This document shows positions 1 to 5,405 of a stretch of 5,405 nt of DNA, piece after piece. This DNA is from an uncultured Selenomonadales bacterium (GTDB taxonomy: Bacteria > Bacillota_C > Negativicutes > Selenomonadales > Selenomonadaceae). The notes below the pieces were generated by a model that saw only the letters and a program-made list of their open reading frames with translations, was not told the origin of the DNA and searched no databases. The stretch is taken from positions 1 to 5,405 of the forward strand of contig CALGGX010000106.1 of the NCBI GenBank assembly GCA_937916025.1, given 5' to 3'. The stretch's first letter is position 1, and every line of letters starts with the position of its first letter. A program made the position numbers and the translations under genes.

Positions 1-370
1 CGAGATTTTCGAGCAAAATGATCTCAGGCTTCGGATCGAGCAAATCCATGTCATAGACGTGAAACGACTGAAAATCACTGACGACGATCCATTTCGACTT
101 GTCTTTGAACGGCAGAAGTGCGTCATACGATTTCGCCTGCAAAAACGCGGCATTGAGGTCTCGATCGATTGATTTTTGCTCGATCAGAACATGCGTCGAG
201 GGAATGCGCGCGTCGATGAATTTGCCTTTGATCCGATGCTCGAAGATGAGCCAATCCTCCGGCTCGTCAATTGAAAAAAGAACGCGGAAGAGCATGAGCC
301 AGAAAGTTTGCATCTCGCCCTTCTCGTAACCATGCCCCTGCCAACGTTCCATGAATTGTTGTATATCCAA
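1..370 (-). CDS. MmeI-like type II restriction-modification protein, N-terminal part (cut by window edge)
   Basis: The 123 visible residues match the N-terminal region of single-chain restriction-methylation proteins of the MmeI/type IIL class, which cut and methylate DNA with one polypeptide. The opening (MDIQQFMERWQGHGYEKGE), then QTFWLMLF, is typical of that family. A PD-(D/E)XK nuclease core is visible: Asp53, then after ten residues Glu64-Gln-Lys66 (the ExK pair). The helicase-like spacer, methyltransferase and target-recognition domains would lie beyond base 1, so activity cannot be judged. I chose the TTG at 370 because the sequence GGGGGTGA at 383-376 is a near-perfect ribosome binding site five bases upstream and the protein then starts as its relatives do. 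A GTG at 379 is in frame but sits inside that site. The gene has its own promoter at 403-430. An alternative reading is an orphan or BREX-type adenine methyltransferase with a similar N-terminus. Confidence 0.8.
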   Translation of the reverse strand, partial: MDIQQFMERWQGHGYEKGEMQTFWLMLFRVLFSIDEPEDWLIFEHRIKGKFIDARIPSTHVLIEQKSIDRDLNAAFLQAKSYDALLPFKDKSKWIVVSDFQSFHVYDMDLLDPKPEIILLENL

Positions 371-375
371 ACTCT

Positions 376-383
376 TCACCCCC
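376..383 (-). promoter_or_regulatory. Ribosome binding site that decides the TTG start at 370
   Basis: GGGGGTGA differs by one base from the ideal GGAGGTGA and is five bases from TTG at 370. It overlaps the alternative GTG at 379, which therefore has no room for its own site. Confidence 0.6.
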
Positions 384-402
384 GAAGAAACGCTTGAAGC
401 AT

Positions 403-430
403 TTTATATCGGCAACTTCGGAGGCGTCAA
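403..430 (-). promoter_or_regulatory. Sigma70/A-type promoter for the restriction-modification gene
   Basis: Reading leftward, TTGACG (430-425, five of six consensus bases) is followed after 16 bases by TATAAA (408-403, five of six). A slightly shifted TAAAAT also fits with 18-base spacing. Transcription would start near 396, leaving about 25 bases of leader that contain the ribosome binding site at 383-376. It lies in the short gap after the secreted-protein gene, so the restriction gene need not depend on readthrough from the peptide operon. Confidence 0.6.
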
Positions 431-443
431 GGACATTTGCCGG

Positions 444-905
444 TCAACTGCCGTAGCTGAGTCCGTTCGCAACGCGAATTTTTATGCGTTGAATTCCCGT
501 ATCGCAGTAATAGCAAACCATGATTGAAACGTTACAGTAATGCGGCGTCTTTTTTCTGCCGAAATTGACATTGGAAACCGATTTGGAGCCGGTGTAATCG
601 AAATAGTATCTGACATATTTATGAGCGGATGAGCGAGTGTAATCCTCGACATCATTGCCGTCGCAGCTGAAAGGATAATTATTCGTCAGCAAATTGATGT
701 ATCGCCGAACATAATTATCACCGCCGGAGTTAACTTCGCAATCGTAATCGTAGCTGACAAAACCGTTCTTTGAGCTTTGAGTGCCTGCAAAAGTGACATT
801 GTTTCCGGCGACGGATTGAAAGTTCGGAACGTCTGCAGCCTCCGCGAGTATCGTCGGAAACATCAATGCGATCGCAACTGTCATCGATATAAAAAACTTT
901 TTCAT
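444..905 (-). CDS. Small secreted protein with five cysteines, unknown function
   Basis: I do not recognise this 153-residue protein. It begins with a classic Sec signal peptide: MKK, a hydrophobic stretch over about residues 4-19, and a likely type I cleavage site at Ala-Glu-Ala (21-23), giving a mature protein of about 130 residues. There is no lipobox cysteine near the cleavage site, no sortase motif and no later membrane helix, so it should be free outside the membrane. The mature part is rich in Tyr, Asn and Ser, probably beta-rich, with cysteines at 56, 81, 124, 131 and 134; the last three are clustered near the C-terminus. The start is supported by AAGGAGA at 920-914, eight bases upstream. 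It follows the ABC exporter gene by 55 bases with no promoter or terminator that I can see, so it is probably the last gene of the peptide operon. Immunity protein, product-binding partner or unrelated envelope protein are all possible; nothing in the sequence decides between them. Confidence 0.8.
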   Translation of the reverse strand: MKKFFISMTVAIALMFPTILAEAADVPNFQSVAGNNVTFAGTQSSKNGFVSYDYDCEVNSGGDNYVRRYINLLTNNYPFSCDGNDVEDYTRSSAHKYVRYYFDYTGSKSVSNVNFGRKKTPHYCNVSIMVCYYCDTGIQRIKIRVANGLSYGS

Positions 906-960
906 GACGAATTTCTCCTTCGTAATTCATTTTTGATTGAAGTTGATAATTTCATCGGAA

Positions 961-2640
961 TTAATCGGCTGTTGATTCCCTCAAAAATTCAATCGTTATC
1001 ACGTCCGAAACATATTTACAAACTTCTTTTTTGTGAGTAACAATAATAATGGTTTTGCGGTAAACTTGCCCGGTCAGCCTCGTTAAGAACAACTTTTCCG
1101 TTTCCGCATCCGGCGCGGAGGTCGGCTCATCCATTAAAATTACTTTTCCGGGGCGTAAAAAACTCCTTGCAATTGCAATTCGTTGCGCCTGTCCTTCACT
1201 GACACCGACTCCGCTCTCGCCCGCCTCGGTATCCAATCCGTCGGGAAAATCCTTAATAACAAATTCTGCCGCCGCCGCATAAAGTGCTTCGCGCATTTCA
1301 TCTTCGGTCGCATCAGTTTTTCCCAGCAACAGATTATAGCGGATCGTGCCGCTGATCAGACTGTTTCCTTGCGGAACGTAAACACAAATTCCGCGCGTGC
1401 GCGGACTTGCCGTGTAATATTGCAATGTGCCGTTTTCGTTTCCGTAAAAAGAAATGTTGCCGGAGTTCGGAGTCAAAACGGCGAGAATCAACCGCAAAAG
1501 CGTACTTTTACCGGCTCCGGTCTCGCCCAGAATCGCCGTTATACTGCCGGGGGCAAAATCATGATTGAAACCATGATATATCCGACGAGAAGCCTTTGTG
1601 TAGCGAAAATCTACTTCTGAAAATTTAATGCCGACAGGAACCGAAAACTTAACAGGAGTTTCAACATCTGCCTTCGGCATATTCTCAATTTCCATCAATC
1701 TTTCGACGGAAGCAATCGACGTGATAAGCAACGGATACCGATGGTTAAATTGAATAAACGGAACCTGAATTTGTTCCGCCAACTGTAAAAAAACAACCAA
1801 CTCGGCATAGGTAAAAGTCTTGTTTTGTATGCCGCAAATGCCCCAAATCAGAATGATGATATAACTGATATTCAAGGCACTGTCTATCAAAGACATGTTG
1901 AAAACATTTAATTTTGTACCGGTTATAATCTTTTCATACAGCGCATTTTGAAGTAATTTCAGCCTGTTCCAAATGAACGAAGTTTTTTCCAGAGTAACAA
2001 TTAATTCGCGATGCTGAAGATGTTCCTGCATAAATTGGTGCGCTTTACTGTCGCGGATTCTTATTTCTCTGTGTACAGGCAATAATTTTTTTGCGTATGA
2101 TTGACCAAACATTATATTTACGGACATAATCAAAAGTATCACCAACGTTAACGCGGGGTCGATTAACGAGAGATAAACACAAGTAGCGATAAGTTGCACA
2201 AAAGCATAAATCAAATCCGGAATGGTTCCCACCAAACAATTGGAAACGTTAAAGACATCTGTCGTCAGCCTGCTCAGTGAATCGCCGGAATGTACTTTTT
2301 CGTTGTAAGAGATGTTGTCGGAGAACAGTTCTTTAAAGAATTTTAAGGTGAGCTCATTGTTCATTAAGCGGATTTGTTTTTCGCGCAAATAAAATTTAAG
2401 TGCAACGCAAAGTATGTTGCCGCCTTTGATCATCGTAAGCGACACTGTCAAAAGTAAGAAAGAAAAATTTTCGCCTCGTTCTAAGGCTTCCATAAAAATT
2501 TTGGTGATTTCCACAAACAGCAATGAAAATGCCACCGTCAATGTACTCAGCAACAAGTAAAGCAGTATACTCTTTTGGAACGTCCCGACATGATTATGTA
2601 ACCACTCGAAATATTTTCTAATTGTGCTCCGATATGTCAT
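961..2640 (-). CDS. ABC exporter, fused permease and ATPase, lacking a C39 peptidase domain
   Basis: This 559-residue protein is a half-transporter that should dimerise in the cytoplasmic membrane and export a substrate using ATP. Residues 1 to about 320 form the membrane domain with roughly six hydrophobic segments (near 24-44, 60-80, 140-160, 162-180, 250-270 and 278-295). Residues from about 337 form the ATPase: Walker A GETGAGKST (372-380), Q-loop Gln424 in VPQGNSLISGTI, signature VSEGQ (480-484) followed by AQRIAIAR, Walker B VILMDE (500-505), D-loop SAPD (508-511) and switch His536 in VTHKKE. All catalytic residues are present; the signature and D-loop differ slightly from the usual LSGGQ and SALD. 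No papain-like C39 domain precedes the membrane part, unlike PCAT exporters that cleave double-glycine leaders. Its start codon overlaps the end of the ClpP-like gene by 23 bases, with GGGGAT six bases upstream. Its place in the operon makes the modified peptide the likely cargo (inference); a lipid or drug exporter is the alternative. Confidence 0.9.
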   Translation of the reverse strand: MTYRSTIRKYFEWLHNHVGTFQKSILLYLLLSTLTVAFSLLFVEITKIFMEALERGENFSFLLLTVSLTMIKGGNILCVALKFYLREKQIRLMNNELTLKFFKELFSDNISYNEKVHSGDSLSRLTTDVFNVSNCLVGTIPDLIYAFVQLIATCVYLSLIDPALTLVILLIMSVNIMFGQSYAKKLLPVHREIRIRDSKAHQFMQEHLQHRELIVTLEKTSFIWNRLKLLQNALYEKIITGTKLNVFNMSLIDSALNISYIIILIWGICGIQNKTFTYAELVVFLQLAEQIQVPFIQFNHRYPLLITSIASVERLMEIENMPKADVETPVKFSVPVGIKFSEVDFRYTKASRRIYHGFNHDFAPGSITAILGETGAGKSTLLRLILAVLTPNSGNISFYGNENGTLQYYTASPRTRGICVYVPQGNSLISGTIRYNLLLGKTDATEDEMREALYAAAAEFVIKDFPDGLDTEAGESGVGVSEGQAQRIAIARSFLRPGKVILMDEPTSAPDAETEKLFLTRLTGQVYRKTIIIVTHKKEVCKYVSDVITIEFLRESTAD

Positions 2641-3136
2641 TTACGATCCCCAAATCCTTCGCTTTTTGCGGAGTCAACAGACAACCTTTTTTCATCAGAC
2701 GCTTCCAGTAAGATTTATTTTTATTGCTTGTACTCGCGAGAATTGTCGCCACTTTATCCGTATTGAACGCCATTTCTTTTGCTTCGCGCAATAAATCTTC
2801 GGCGGTGAAGTTGCCGTTCAGATTTTTGGTAACGGAATGGACATAAAAGGTTGAACACGGCAAGCTGATGCGCTCGGTACCGGCGGCAAAAATGATAATC
2901 GCCGCAGAATTGACGCAAGAGATATTTACCATCCTTATCTTGCAATCCAACAGCTTTAGAAAATAAAAAAGCTCGACGGCAATGTCAACGCTTCCGCCCG
3001 GAGAAGAAATATATATGGTCAACGAGGTACTCTCCGGATTTTCTTCAATCACCGTCTTTATTTCATTGATGAACGCTCGAACGGTCTCTTCATCAACTTT
3101 TCCCGTAAAGCTGAGTTTTACATCTGCGTTTTTCAT
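2618..3136 (-). CDS. ClpP-like stand-alone serine protease (peptidase S14 fold)
   Basis: This 172-residue protein has the ClpP/crotonase-like fold. It shows the SSPGG oxyanion strand (44-48), a candidate nucleophile Ser77 in VNSAAIIIFAAG, and a candidate His100 in FYVHS; the Ser-to-His spacing of 23 is close to the 25 of E. coli ClpP. The position where ClpP has its catalytic Asp, just before the (F/L)(S/T)-x-x-x-A segment, appears here as Gly151 in KKGCLLTPQKA, so the acid may be missing or supplied elsewhere. Compared with housekeeping ClpP, the N-terminal axial-loop region of about 20 residues is absent: the protein starts directly at the first strand (VKLSFTGKV). It is therefore a non-canonical paralogue and not the cell's main ClpP. 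The start at 3136 has only a weak purine stretch upstream. It lies behind a terminator-like hairpin and overlaps the exporter gene by 23 bases. Leader removal or processing of the modified peptide is an inference from this context. Confidence 0.85.
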   Translation of the reverse strand: MKNADVKLSFTGKVDEETVRAFINEIKTVIEENPESTSLTIYISSPGGSVDIAVELFYFLKLLDCKIRMVNISCVNSAAIIIFAAGTERISLPCSTFYVHSVTKNLNGNFTAEDLLREAKEMAFNTDKVATILASTSNKNKSYWKRLMKKGCLLTPQKAKDLGIVNDISEHN

Positions 3137-3162
3137 GTCAACTTTCTTTCATTTGCTTTACG

Positions 3163-3205
3163 AAAAAAACGGTGCAACCGCCTGTCAGACTGCCGCGCAC
3201 CGTTT
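3163..3205 (-). terminator. Hairpin with T-tract between precursor and protease genes: likely attenuator
   Basis: On the minus strand the arms AAACGGTGC (3205-3197) and GCACCGTTT (3175-3167) pair perfectly over nine bases around a loop of about 21 bases, and the RNA then ends in seven U (3169-3163, overlapping the lower stem). This is a textbook intrinsic terminator placed about 95 bases after the precursor stop and 30 bases before the protease start. As no promoter is evident between the hairpin and the protease, partial readthrough is the simplest explanation, giving many precursor transcripts and fewer for protease and exporter. Confidence 0.8.
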
Positions 3206-3300
3206 CTCCGTAAATTACTTGCCTGTTGAATTTCAAATCATTTCAAACAAAATCGAATAAACCTCAACAGCCTCGCCTCTCGCTACTTCCGGAACGGGCA

Positions 3301-3501
3301 TTAATAGCGACCGCTGCTGCCTCCAGAACAACTTCCGGAACAGGAATTATGGCAAGAACCGGTACATTCGGTACCGCAGTGCCCGGTGCACTGGCAATAA
3401 TCCATGTTTGCCGATTCGTGCTCGGCGATCGCGCCGTTCTCTTTGCCGTACTCAGCCAATTTGAGTTCAAGAGCTTTGAGAGCATCCATATTCATCTTCA
3501 T
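3301..3501 (-). CDS. RiPP precursor peptide with six tandem CXXX repeats
   Basis: This 66-residue peptide is the probable substrate of the adjacent radical SAM enzyme. Residues 1 to about 35 look like a leader: an amphipathic helix (MDALKALELKLAEYGKENG) followed by an acidic linker. The tail carries Cys36 and then cysteines at 38, 42, 46, 50, 54 and 58, exactly four apart. The units read CTGH, CGTE, CTGS, CHNS, CSGS, CSGG, after which the same register continues without cysteine as SSGR and a final Tyr66. The spacers are mostly Gly, Ser and Thr. The start is ATG at 3501, six bases after a perfect AAGGAGGTGA; a TTG at 3507 is in frame but too close to that site. It follows the maturase by 107 bases and precedes an attenuator. 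The composition and neighbour fit the CXXX-repeat class of radical SAM targets, where thioether crosslinks are expected (family knowledge; not shown for this peptide). A metal-binding metallothionein-like peptide is the main alternative. Confidence 0.85.
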   Translation of the reverse strand: MKMNMDALKALELKLAEYGKENGAIAEHESANMDYCQCTGHCGTECTGSCHNSCSGSCSGGSSGRY

Positions 3502-3507
3502 TTTCAA

Positions 3508-3517
3508 TCACCTCCTT
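3508..3517 (-). promoter_or_regulatory. Very strong ribosome binding site of the precursor gene
   Basis: AAGGAGGTGA is fully complementary to the 3' end of 16S rRNA and lies six bases before ATG 3501. It is the strongest such site in the window and fits a gene product needed in high amount. It rules against TTG 3507 as the start. Confidence 0.85.
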
Positions 3518-3554
3518 TCCGATTTTTCTCGACGGTACAGATATAGAAACTTAT

Positions 3555-3589
3555 TGATGCTGTGGAGTTAAAATCATGCAGTTGCATCA
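3555..3589. repeat. Short inverted repeat in the maturase-precursor gap
   Basis: TGATGC (3555-3560) and GCATCA (3584-3589) are inverted copies around 23 bases, and the inner sequence ATGCAGTTGCAT contains a second small inverted repeat. There is no T-tract, so it is not a standard terminator. It could be an RNA processing or stabilising structure for the precursor message, an operator, or chance. I found no convincing promoter in this 107-base gap. Confidence 0.3.
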
Positions 3590-3608
3590 GATAAGGGATC
3601 TATCATAT

Positions 3609-4763
3609 TTAAATTACATACGGACTTTTACTCTTTTCGATGTCCAGATATTTTAATACTTCGTATGCTTGGAGAGCCACTTTGCCGTGGTGTGCATCTT
3701 GCATATCAAGTTTATCCATCTTGGAAATAAGCTCCACTTGGAATTCGCAAGCTGTTAATGCTTCCGCCAAAACCATCGGACACCAACGTTTATCTCTAAC
3801 GGCAAGATGTCCGCGATTTTTATAATTGAAGCCCGGACATGTCGGACAAAAATTTCTCAACACGCAACTTTTACAATAATCATCAGCATTTAACTCCGGA
3901 GAATCCCATTCAACCGCATCTGCCGATAAAGCTCTGTTACTCCCCAAGACCAACGGCGTAAACATCTGGCAACCGTATTTCTTCCCGTCAATATCATAAG
4001 TCGCCATATATTTTCCCGTGCCGCACCATTTCTCTTGGACTTTTTCTGCAGGCGGCGCATTGGAAACATTGACGAATCTTGTCAGTCTGTTAAATGGAAT
4101 AAGTTCGGTGTTTTTTAAATAGGCATCTTTTAATATGCATAATTGATCGCGATACATCAGTGCATCTTCGATTGTCCAATCTATGCCTTCCGCCAAAGCC
4201 GCCTCGACTTTATATCCTTTTTTTTGTATATCCAGAACGCCCTCCGCCAAAGTTGGAAGAGTCTCTTTTGAAATCGTCATGTGCAAAGCCTGATGAGACC
4301 ACAACTCATTGAAAAAAGCTAAGTCTATGTCATGCTTCTCTGTACCGCGATTAATGATCTGCATTTGACCGGTTCCGTCGTAGCTTGCACCAAGATTGAT
4401 GGCGTCTTTATGCGCTCGTAACCAGCTTTTGATTTCATCGGTAAGCAACGTGGCATTTGTTGTAGCAAAGCAAATCCACGGAACATCAATGACGCCGGTT
4501 TCCAACCATTCGACGACATATTTTATCAGCGGAAAATTCATGAACGGTTCGCCGCCCATAAAATCTATCTCCAACTCGTCGAAACGATCGCTCTCTTTAA
4601 CAAATCGTGCCTCACGCAAAATAATTTCCGTTGCCAAGTCCGTGTCCATATGAGCATTTTTCTTATAAGGCTCATAGCAATAACTGCAATTAAGGTTACA
4701 GGCGTGAGTTACCATCAGCATACAAGTACGTCTGCGTATTGAGCTTTCAACGCCCCAATCCAT
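3609..4763 (-). CDS. Radical SAM/SPASM peptide maturase
   Basis: This 384-residue enzyme should cleave S-adenosylmethionine to a 5'-deoxyadenosyl radical and modify the neighbouring precursor peptide. The radical SAM cluster motif CxxxCxxC is at Cys22, Cys26 and Cys29 (ACNLNCSYCYEP), and GGEP, which contacts SAM, is at 70-73. The C-terminal SPASM domain, which holds auxiliary iron-sulfur clusters, shows Cys247 and Cys265, then Cys297-x2-Cys300-x5-Cys306-x2-Cys309, and Cys328, the expected spacing pattern. No N-terminal RiPP recognition element (RRE) is present, since the cluster motif starts only 21 residues in, and no separate RRE protein is encoded nearby. Enzymes of this type make thioether or carbon-carbon links in sactipeptides, ranthipeptides and related peptides; the CXXX repeat of the next gene points to thioether formation (inference). 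It has a promoter at 4810-4838 and an AAAGG site nine bases upstream, and is the first gene of the operon. Confidence 0.93.
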   Translation of the reverse strand: MDWGVESSIRRRTCMLMVTHACNLNCSYCYEPYKKNAHMDTDLATEIILREARFVKESDRFDELEIDFMGGEPFMNFPLIKYVVEWLETGVIDVPWICFATTNATLLTDEIKSWLRAHKDAINLGASYDGTGQMQIINRGTEKHDIDLAFFNELWSHQALHMTISKETLPTLAEGVLDIQKKGYKVEAALAEGIDWTIEDALMYRDQLCILKDAYLKNTELIPFNRLTRFVNVSNAPPAEKVQEKWCGTGKYMATYDIDGKKYGCQMFTPLVLGSNRALSADAVEWDSPELNADDYCKSCVLRNFCPTCPGFNYKNRGHLAVRDKRWCPMVLAEALTACEFQVELISKMDKLDMQDAHHGKVALQAYEVLKYLDIEKSKSPYVI

Positions 4764-4786
4764 TACACTCTACCTTTCTGAGTTCG

Positions 4787-4798
4787 TTTTTTTTTTTT
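4787..4798. repeat. Homopolymer run of twelve T (A12 in the maturase mRNA leader)
   Basis: An uninterrupted run of twelve T on the plus strand lies between the promoter and the ribosome binding site of the maturase gene, so the mRNA begins with an A-rich leader. Such a run can change length by polymerase slippage, but being outside the coding region it would alter expression, not reading frame. It may also act as an unstructured ribosome standby site. Confidence 0.6.
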
Positions 4799-4809
4799 CG
4801 TACGATTGT

Positions 4810-4838
4810 ATTGTAAAGCAACACAAATCAAAAGTCAA
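4810..4838 (-). promoter_or_regulatory. Near-consensus promoter of the peptide operon
   Basis: Reading leftward, TTGACT (4838-4833) is followed after exactly 17 bases by TACAAT (4815-4810), each matching five of six consensus positions. A second overlapping TACAAT follows at 4810-4805. Transcription would start near 4803, giving a leader of about 40 bases before the maturase start. The promoter begins just 13 bases after the T-tract of the upstream terminator, so the operon is insulated from nifJ transcription. I see no obvious operator apart from the overlapping TACAAT copies. Confidence 0.75.
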
Positions 4839-4850
4839 GAGAATGAGCAC

Positions 4851-4880
4851 AAAAAAAAAAGAGACTCCGTAGGGAGCTTC
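4851..4880 (-). terminator. Intrinsic terminator upstream of the peptide operon
   Basis: Minus-strand GAAGCTCC and GGAGTCTC pair around the loop CTAC, with one wobble and one mismatch, and are followed by ten T (4860-4851). It would stop leftward transcripts that escape the nifJ terminator or that arise between 4890 and 5130. Its core resembles the nifJ terminator at 5134-5170 (GAGAC, C or T, CCGTA, then GGAG). Confidence 0.7.
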
Positions 4881-4896
4881 TTCAGGATTACGATGA

Positions 4897-5085
4897 TCAA
4901 TTGCCATGCAATGTCGGCATCGCTGACGTCAAAAACAAGTCCTTGATTTTTGCATTGCTTGATATAACAAATCGCGGCGGCGTTTTCATTTCAATAGGCT
5001 GATGTTGCTCCGAGTTTTTCAAGTCCGGATAACGAGCATAATTTTTATGACTGACGGCGTATTTGTCCACATACAAAGAAGCCAT
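4897..5085 (-). CDS. Doubtful 62-codon ORF between two terminators
   Basis: I do not recognise the product. The ORF starts at ATG 5085 without a visible ribosome binding site and ends just before the terminator at 4851-4880. The peptide is hydrophilic with no signal, membrane or cysteine motif. It lies in the same frame as the nifJ stop upstream, with no stop between, so an open frame here may be chance or a remnant of an older gene. A TTGACT at about 5124-5119 could be a -35 box, but the matching -10 (TATTTA) is poor. The remaining bases of the gap from 4881 to 5133 show no tRNA or riboswitch fold that I can recognise; a small RNA ending at the terminator is possible. Confidence 0.2.
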   Translation of the reverse strand: MASLYVDKYAVSHKNYARYPDLKNSEQHQPIEMKTPPRFVISSNAKIKDLFLTSAMPTLHGN

Positions 5086-5090
5086 GCAAT
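4903..5090. repeat. Ten-base direct repeat GCCATGCAAT at the ends of the doubtful ORF
   Basis: GCCATGCAAT occurs at 4903-4912 and again at 5081-5090, spanning the last and the first codons of the 62-codon ORF. It could be a footprint of an insertion or duplication, or chance. Confidence 0.35.
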
Positions 5091-5133
5091 TGAATAAATA
5101 ACCCGTACAATCGGGCGAGTCAACTGCGGAACG

Positions 5134-5170
5134 AAAAAACAGAGACCCCGTATTGGAGTCTCCGTTTTTT
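5134..5170. terminator. Bidirectional terminator after nifJ
   Basis: A hairpin of about ten pairs (5140-5163, arms CAGAGACCCC and GGAGTCTCCG with wobbles) around a four-base loop is flanked by six A on the left and seven T on the right of the plus strand. For nifJ, read leftward, the hairpin is followed by T-rich 5139-5134. It begins about 20 bases after the nifJ stop. Confidence 0.85.
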
Positions 5171-5190
5171 GATCGAGTGATCGCTCGAAA

Positions 5191-5405
5191 TTATTTTCCT
5201 GCCAATTTTTTATATCCCGCAATACGATCTTCGGCGTCGTGTTGCGTCTTCTCGAAGAGTGCCTCCGCCGCCTCGGGGAAGTTGCGCTTCAATGACGAAT
5301 ATCTCACTTCGCCCTGCAGGAACTCATTAAACTTGCTGAAGTCGGGCTCCTTGCTGTCGAGCGTGAACGGATTTTTTCCCGCGTCTTTTAATTGAGGATT
5401 GAAAC
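5191..5405 (-). CDS. nifJ: Pyruvate:ferredoxin (flavodoxin) oxidoreductase, C-terminal end (5' part outside window)
   Basis: The final 70 residues match the C-terminal extension of the large single-chain pyruvate:ferredoxin oxidoreductase: NPQLKDAGKNPFTLDSKEP, then DFSKFNEFLQGEVRYSSL, then a helical KRNFPEAAEALFEK tail ending in GYKKLAGK. The full enzyme, normally near 1170-1200 residues, converts pyruvate, CoA and oxidised ferredoxin to acetyl-CoA, CO2 and reduced ferredoxin in the cytoplasm of anaerobes, using thiamine diphosphate and [4Fe-4S] clusters. Those domains lie beyond the window edge. It is followed by a bidirectional terminator, so it is a separate transcription unit from the peptide operon and marks the conserved flank. 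Confidence 0.92.
   Translation of the reverse strand, partial: FNPQLKDAGKNPFTLDSKEPDFSKFNEFLQGEVRYSSLKRNFPEAAEALFEKTQHDAEDRIAGYKKLAGK

Follow-up and report, generated by a model that had tools for sequence, protein, structure and literature searches.

What does a ClpP-fold protease do between the gene for a cysteine-rich precursor peptide and the gene for an exporter that has no peptidase domain of its own? The question is raised by a contig of an uncultured Selenomonadales bacterium (family Selenomonadaceae; assembly GCA_937916025.1, contig CALGGX010000106.1, positions 1 to 5,405; these 5,405 nucleotides are referred to here as the window), in which four genes lie together at 961-4763, all on the minus strand, and form a cassette of the kind that makes ribosomally synthesized and posttranslationally modified peptides (RiPPs). 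Leader removal is a key step in RiPP biosynthesis. On balance, we lean toward reading the four genes as a complete cassette for a ribosomal, radical SAM-modified, cysteine-rich peptide in which a dedicated ClpP paralog, probably independent of any ATPase, replaces the C39 peptidase. The genes are as follows (ABC, ATP-binding cassette).

4763-3609, minus strand: radical SAM/SPASM maturase, 384 amino acids (Pfam and NCBIfam profiles, invariant cysteines, AlphaFold2 model)
3501-3301, minus strand: precursor peptide, 66 amino acids, with a conserved leader (about residues 1-34) and a CXXX-repeat core (homologs)
3136-2618, minus strand: ClpP-like protein, 172 amino acids, with Ser77 and His100 kept and Gly151 at the position of the triad Asp (Pfam, model, alignment)
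2640-961, minus strand: ABC exporter, 559 amino acids, with membrane domain and ATPase, without a C39 peptidase (Pfam)

The sequence-only reading of this locus had named maturase motifs, a cysteine-repeat substrate, an exporter, and a ClpP-fold gene, and profiles, motifs, and structure prediction bear out all four. The maturase matches the Pfam family Radical_SAM (41.7 bits; cut-off, 29.5), and the cysteines of its CX3CX2C motif (C22, C26, and C29) are unchanged in all of the 22 rows aligned, at identities down to 39%. Seven more cysteines (C247, C265, C297, C300, C306, C309, and C328), the spacing of which we take to be that of SPASM domains, are invariant in the same 22 rows and, together with the radical SAM motif, place the protein among the radical SAM/SPASM maturases of RiPPs. 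The top NCBIfam model was that of the PapB ranthipeptide maturase (NF047865), at 108.3 bits versus a cut-off of 340, while the CXXX-repeat maturase model (TIGR04115) gave 84.3 bits versus 350. The closest PDB entry to the AlphaFold2 model (pLDDT, 86.7) was CteB, a thioether-forming maturase (5why_B; TM score of 0.67 by query length). Because the first strand of the model begins at residue 11, the maturase lacks an N-terminal recognition domain, and no search was aimed at a RiPP recognition element (RRE) elsewhere.

Homologs of the precursor numbered 256 (E value of ≤1e-3), and the statistics given here refer to 121 distinct sequences, that is, the best 120 of the 256 plus the window, a choice that favors conserved leaders. 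Residues M1, L11, E12, K14, and G23 are invariant, the mean entropy of residues 1-30 is 0.66 bits, and no cysteine occurs in that stretch in any of the 121 sequences. Neighboring cysteines are four residues apart in 577 of 684 pairs, with a repeat unit of C-x-G-S/T (G in 62%, S or T in 56%), 216 different tripeptides among the 577 CXXXC units, and only 3.3% Asp plus Glu in the core. The window precursor itself has seven cysteines, six of them in an unbroken CXXX register that 8 of 200,000 shuffled versions of this peptide's core also reach; along similar lines, in 111 of the 121 precursors at most 1% of same-core shuffles matched the longest CXXX run. As read from these alignments, the family is one of a constant leader and a diversified core, and the combination of a conserved leader and a modifiable core beside a maturase is that of a RiPP. 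One cassette (L008) has two precursors (1472-1642 and 1779-1967) with different cores.

Cysteine-rich repeats are also found in metal-binding proteins, and the CXXX peptide could on that ground be a metal-binding or structural one, with no RiPP involved and with the radical SAM protein activating something else. Given that the leader is far more conserved than the core and free of cysteine in residues 1-30, and that maturase, precursor, and exporter are kept together across three phyla, we consider this highly improbable. The sequence-only reading had further assigned the maturase and precursor to a known theme of radical SAM enzymes paired with CXXX repeats. That holds loosely: the C-x-x-x repeats are present, but both proteins fall far below the NCBIfam CXXX cut-offs, the precursor with 17.6 bits versus 50 for the CXXX-repeat target model TIGR04117, a similarity limited to core residues 38-61. 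Some similarity to TIGR04117 (E value of ≤1) is seen in 15 of 19 precursors. A precomputed Pfam label, PF27846, is attached to 11 of the best 120 precursors and is not returned by the Pfam profiles used here; some of the precursors may already belong to a more recent family.

The ABC gene matches ABC_membrane and ABC_tran above cut-off, and a C39 peptidase domain was found in none of the five exporters scanned (the window and four others), which sets them apart from PCATs. In the window, the exporter and ClpP-like genes overlap by 23 bases (2618-2640). At nine Selenomonadaceae loci, the exporter ATG precedes the final base of the ClpP-like gene by 19 to 22 bases, and at six Bacteroidales loci it is at -3 to +7. 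All 15 loci examined, like the window, have the two genes overlapping or almost in contact. A reversed gene order, with ABC before ClpP (L018 and L075), does not separate the ClpP-like gene from the exporter.

This arrangement bears on a quality control function, in which the ClpP-like protein would degrade unmodified or mis-modified precursor or the freed leader, the leader itself being removed by an unlinked host protease or retained. Degradation in a chamber is the usual work of ClpP, and the open pore suggested by a missing N-terminal segment (see below) would suit unstructured peptides. Nevertheless, the ClpP gene is linked to or overlaps the exporter and not the maturase in all 15 loci, and an exporter without a C39 domain leaves leader removal without an assigned enzyme; we regard quality control as unlikely.

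The ClpP-like protein belongs to the ClpP/S14 peptidase family by profile (CLP_protease, PF00574; 79.7 bits versus a cut-off of 20.2), by fold (AlphaFold2 model with a pLDDT of 93.4 and ClpPs as the top PDB matches), and by its catalytic Ser and His. Our alignment comprised 139 sequences, including P0121, a database copy identical to the window, but not the copies of L007 and L012, which are cut by contig ends (L012 also has a frame break). Ser77 is kept in 139 of the 139 and His100 in 138, and position 151, that of the triad Asp, is never Asp. It is not a canonical housekeeping ClpP, given that the triad Asp and the N-terminal segment are missing, and it scores 44.9 bits with the housekeeping equivalog TIGR00493 (cut-off, 308.6). 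The identity to eight other ClpP-type proteins of the cassette genomes is 20 to 30%, and the window protein is at least 23 residues shorter than seven of the eight, the missing part being the N-terminal segment with the axial loops. In structural alignments, residue 2 of the model pairs with residue 22-26 of most ClpPs listed, but with residue 1-3 of 9uxt. A phage head-maturation ClpP was also considered and set aside, with 51.4 bits for the window against the NF045542 cut-off of 120. When the genomes with related maturase loci (19) were scanned with a profile of the cassette ClpP, cassette copies scored 166.8 to 294.3 bits, the fragment of a broken copy 78.0, and all others no more than 71.2, a good separation that narrows in more distant genomes (see below).

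The triad Asp, missing in 139 of 139, makes it conceivable that the cassette ClpP is noncatalytic or depends on a partner, either as a scaffold or in mixed rings with the housekeeping ClpP, as Listeria ClpP1 forms with ClpP2 (heterocomplex 4ryf). Among the closest structures is that of Listeria ClpP1, which has Asn where the triad Asp would align, and other ClpP-type genes are present in these genomes. However, Ser and His are almost always kept, which a pure scaffold would not need, and the Asp is not universal since, of the eight other ClpP-type proteins, three from Bacteroidales likewise have Asn at this position and one has Glu. We consider this explanation quite unlikely.

In order to see how far the genes travel together, contigs were scanned with the maturase alignment, which gave 20 loci in 19 genomes (G004 holds two cassettes, L004 and L007). 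Neighboring genes were read by eye, and another linked protease is therefore possible. The ClpP-like gene is present at 18 of the 20 related maturase loci, and a precursor at 19, all but L020, with L019 counted only through different short peptides. The first exception (L020, 8001-8543, in genome G019) is a maturase remnant with its middle deleted and no ClpP-like gene, and reads as a decayed cassette. The second (L019, 7911-10914, in Akkermansia) has two maturases of 38 to 40% identity beside short peptides of another kind, nearly identical, of 46 amino acids with four cysteines each (9148-9288 and 9549-9689), with no ClpP or exporter seen there; by its gene content, it is best taken as a different, duplicated peptide system. 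The exporter is seen at 15 of the 18 ClpP-bearing loci; the sequences of L007 and L012 stop short of it, and L002 is weighed below.

Among 189 genomes of the family, the ClpP-like gene (E value of ≤1e-20) was found in 10 and the maturase (E value of ≤1e-60) in 11, namely, the same 10 plus the internally deleted copy (Fisher P = 9e-16, uncorrected for relatedness). A search with the ClpP profile alone in 288 genomes of the order to which the Akkermansia locus belongs gave 18 matches: the known one, 16 at 75 to 80 bits, and one at 113 bits. The context of the 16 Verrucomicrobiales matches was viewed only as three short stretches; the 113-bit match (L075), found by the ClpP profile alone, lies in a cassette that is complete, having maturase, CXXX precursor, and exporter. 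Of 393 Bacteroidales genomes, one has a cassette ClpP and three have weaker homologs in other contexts (at most eight candidates were scored per genome, so that a copy could be missed), and a cassette ClpP is carried by two genomes, both already known, out of 249 from the genus that includes G010. Given how few genomes carry it in these family, order, and genus sets, the ClpP-bearing cassette is rare but widespread. One more, of the Bacteroidales type, lies on a human fecal scaffold (L084, MT836223.1). The hosts are gut bacteria of the Bacillota, Bacteroidota, and Verrucomicrobiota; the nearest relatives of the window are Quinella sp. and Selenomonadaceae metagenome-assembled genomes, with mostly ruminant hosts and organs. 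The genome neighborhood search that the sequence-only reading had proposed thus finds the genes co-occurring well beyond one genome (18 of 20 loci, L075, and L084).

A viral or plasmid origin of the ClpP-like gene was looked for and rejected. Of the 36 IMG/VR stretches that match ClpP-like patterns, none encodes a relative, and plasmids gave two matches only, at 25 to 27%. The only strong match in the phage collection was MT836223 (44.6% identity; four others were at about 30%), an unverified fecal scaffold labeled "Bacteriophage sp."; we treat it as chromosomal because it holds, besides genes resembling SusC/SusD (by eye), the entire cassette of the Bacteroidales type. Recombinase genes lie just upstream of the cassette or remnant at three loci (L013:6416-7618, tyrosine integrase; L084:1-360, C-terminal part of an integrase; L020:7475-7738, N-terminal domain of a resolvase) and may fit mobility. 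The record of L016 is titled "Bacillota bacterium," but the genome falls in the genus of the Prevotella-titled G010 and is probably mislabeled; its maturase has a frame break.

Whether the ClpP-bearing cassettes are a group of their own was addressed with a maturase tree of 35 sequences (L017, partial, and L020, deleted, were left out, and L016 was represented by the longer of two open reading frames). All 20 first maturases linked to ClpP group in a single clade (support of 97/91), which consists of 11 Selenomonadaceae, including the window, seven of the Bacteroidales type, and two Verrucomicrobiota. The Bacteroidales-type cassettes (L011 to L016 and L084) have a second maturase, about 30% identical, between precursor and ClpP, and six of these (the L016 copy was left out) form their own group in the tree (100/100). 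The precursors of the same cassettes also differ, e.g., by GGGG between the first and later cysteines. Nine relatives without ClpP fall outside the clade, several on long branches. Seven are Bacteroidales maturases (32 to 41% identity) with neither a ClpP-like gene nor such an exporter in stretches of 11 to 15 kb, five of them adjoining small peptides with four to nine cysteines; the other two are Akkermansia maturases (38 to 40%), likewise with neither nearby. Two loci with distant maturases and cysteine-rich peptides (L100 and L102) lie among GTPase-like, kinase-like, and PP2C-like genes (by eye) and are perhaps another kind of system.

Since the ClpP-less relatives fall outside the clade, the combination with ClpP is a subtype and not a general trait of CXXX systems, and the simplest reading of the tree would be that ClpP and exporter joined the maturase lineage once and were then kept while gene order changed. 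The idea of a distinct subtype, already put forward from the sequence, gains from a single clade of ClpP-linked maturases that extends across three phyla. The same reading would have given way if relatives of the maturase and precursor regularly occurred without protease and exporter, and here the answer is divided: outside the clade they do (nine maturases), and inside it only the exporter is missing, once (L002).

In the cassette as we read it, the maturase would bind the conserved leader and cross-link the regularly spaced cysteines with residues in their vicinity, thioethers being the most likely bonds. Past the precursor gene, a hairpin that resembles a terminator would hold protease and exporter below the level of the peptide. 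The ClpP-like protein, judged by its fold, would build a ClpP-type ring. The N-terminal segment of ClpP gates the pore, and as this segment is missing here, short peptides could enter the ring without an ATPase. The ClpP-like protein would take off the leader, standing in for the missing C39 domain of the exporter, and the ABC protein would export the product. Leader cleavage by the ClpP-like protein is suggested by the presence of a leader, by an exporter without a peptidase domain, and by a ClpP gene that lies beside the exporter in both gene orders. The full proposal, that an ATPase-independent Ser-His ClpP paralog acts as leader peptidase in trans with a C39-less exporter, in an undescribed class of CXXX radical SAM systems present in three phyla, is tentative, and we place it a little short of probable.

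Several points weigh against leader cleavage by this protein. ClpP normally degrades its substrates instead of cutting once, and the cleavage site is not readable from the sequence. With Asp never found at position 151 (Gly in the window), activity may be low or need a partner. Relatives outside the clade that lie beside cysteine-rich peptides manage without ClpP. The most distant cassette ClpP (L075) scores 113.1 bits, versus 89.1 to 100.5 for the three unlinked Bacteroidales homologs, the contexts of which, seen as short stretches only, lack the cassette. Finally, the L002 cassette has no exporter; a long primase/helicase-like gene (by eye) on the opposite strand (L002:6414-9452) sits at its expected place, which may be an insertion or a misassembly.

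Where a clpP gene adjoins a peptide cluster, the explanation with the best documentation is another one, self-resistance, in which the peptide would hit the ClpP of competitors and the cassette copy would protect the producer, as ClpP-ADEP does; in the accessible text of PMC12607617, a clpP gene close to the ADEP cluster is described as proven to determine resistance. The cassette ClpP, however, lacks the triad Asp and the N-terminal segment and is only distantly similar to the eight other ClpP-type proteins. Its gene overlaps that of the exporter, and the highly variable cores (the 216 tripeptides mentioned above) are unlike a ligand for one conserved pocket. We judge self-resistance to be very unlikely.

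If replacement of the C39 peptidase by the ClpP paralog holds, the ClpP fold would be added to the known folds of leader proteases, as a new route of leader removal, and what is otherwise a chamber for degradation would have become a protease of maturation. It would also provide a natural ClpP without N-terminal segment that works on short peptides. A cassette with its own ClpP-fold protein would, in addition, be a marker by which rumen and human gut bacteria could be mined for a hypervariable family of peptides.

Besides the four genes, the window contains signals around the precursor gene and a candidate fifth gene.

3515-3511, minus strand: Shine-Dalgarno-like GGAGG, nine bases ahead of the precursor ATG (sequence)
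3205-3163, minus strand: hairpin (3205-3167) and T-run (to 3163) between the precursor and ClpP-like genes (conserved among Selenomonadaceae spacers)
905-444, minus strand: candidate companion, 153 amino acids, located 55 bases downstream of the exporter; its start resembles a signal peptide (by eye)

The open reading frame list puts the precursor start at a TTG (3507); with the GGAGG nine bases upstream, the ATG at 3501, which gives the 66 amino acids, appears the better start. All 11 Selenomonadaceae spacers examined between the precursor and ClpP-like genes contain a hairpin followed by a T-rich tail (no shuffle control), and the exact pattern occurs at eight places in seven of the ten cassette genomes, each at a cassette (reversed control, 0). 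RNAalifold gave 17 hairpin pairs, mostly kept, of which only two have changes on both sides, so that the case leans on sequence and position more than on covariation. The hairpin is likely an attenuator. The fold of precursor tail plus spacer was no better than shuffles (z = -0.90), and a promoter scan, with 13 found versus 9.8 expected, was not used.

The companion comes directly after the exporter in the window, and a relative does so in three of ten Selenomonadaceae cassette genomes (L003:9054-9479, L009:3862-4278, and, twice, L017:3402-3863 and 3888-4304). The companion family is present in 14 of the 189 family genomes, in seven of the ten with a cassette and in seven of the 179 others (Fisher P = 2.4e-7, uncorrected for relatedness). 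As a guess, this secreted-looking protein could be an immunity or binding protein. The ends of the window lie outside the cassette and encode an MmeI-type N-terminal domain (2-379) and the C-terminal end of a pyruvate:ferredoxin oxidoreductase (5191-5403).

The sequence-only reading had not recognized the combination of these four genes as a characterized one, and we likewise found no description of it in the open-licence literature searched: among the titles and starts of abstracts of the papers listed (subscription papers being outside this scope), none ties ClpP to a radical SAM peptide cluster. In their accessible text, "Clp," "S14," and "SppA" do not occur in a 2023 review of leader proteases (PMC10885120), nor does "Clp" in surveys of Bacteroidales RiPPs (PMC10352776) and of the Hungate1000 collection (PMC13289728). 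Among known systems, the PapB/freyrasin ranthipeptides share with the cassette the best NCBIfam maturase match, many evenly spaced cysteines, and repeated four-residue units, although that match is below the family cut-off. To our knowledge, neither ClpP nor this kind of exporter is part of the PapB system. PapB acts on Cys-X3-Asp/Glu, according to the accessible text of PMC9413430, whereas here the residue four past a cysteine is usually the next cysteine, and acidic residues are scarce.

SCIFF/CteB has the closest structure to the maturase model and a cysteine-rich substrate, but the score with TIGR03974 is 60.4 bits versus 425, the 384 amino acids compare with 453 in the CteB chain, whose N-terminal part is absent here, and the precursor is another one. 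The C-x-x-x core repeats are shared with the CXXX families TIGR04115 and TIGR04117 and with the FibroRumin target TIGR04135; the window falls below the cut-offs of the first two, as given above, and of the third (11.7 bits versus 45). Listeria ClpP1 and other accessory ClpPs differ from the cassette protein, which has Gly instead of Asn, belongs to a peptide cassette, and lacks the N-terminal segment. ClpP-ADEP of Streptomyces hawaiiensis is similar in that a clpP homolog lies beside a peptide natural-product cluster; as described in the accessible text of PMC12607617, it works together with Clp-ATPases and protects against an antibiotic that targets ClpP, whereas the ClpP-like gene of the cassette overlaps a gene for the exporter of a ribosomal peptide. 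The C39 exporters (PCAT/AMS) offer a functional analogy, in that dedicated peptide export is tied to a protease; here, the exporter is without the C39 domain, and the protease has a different fold and is encoded separately.

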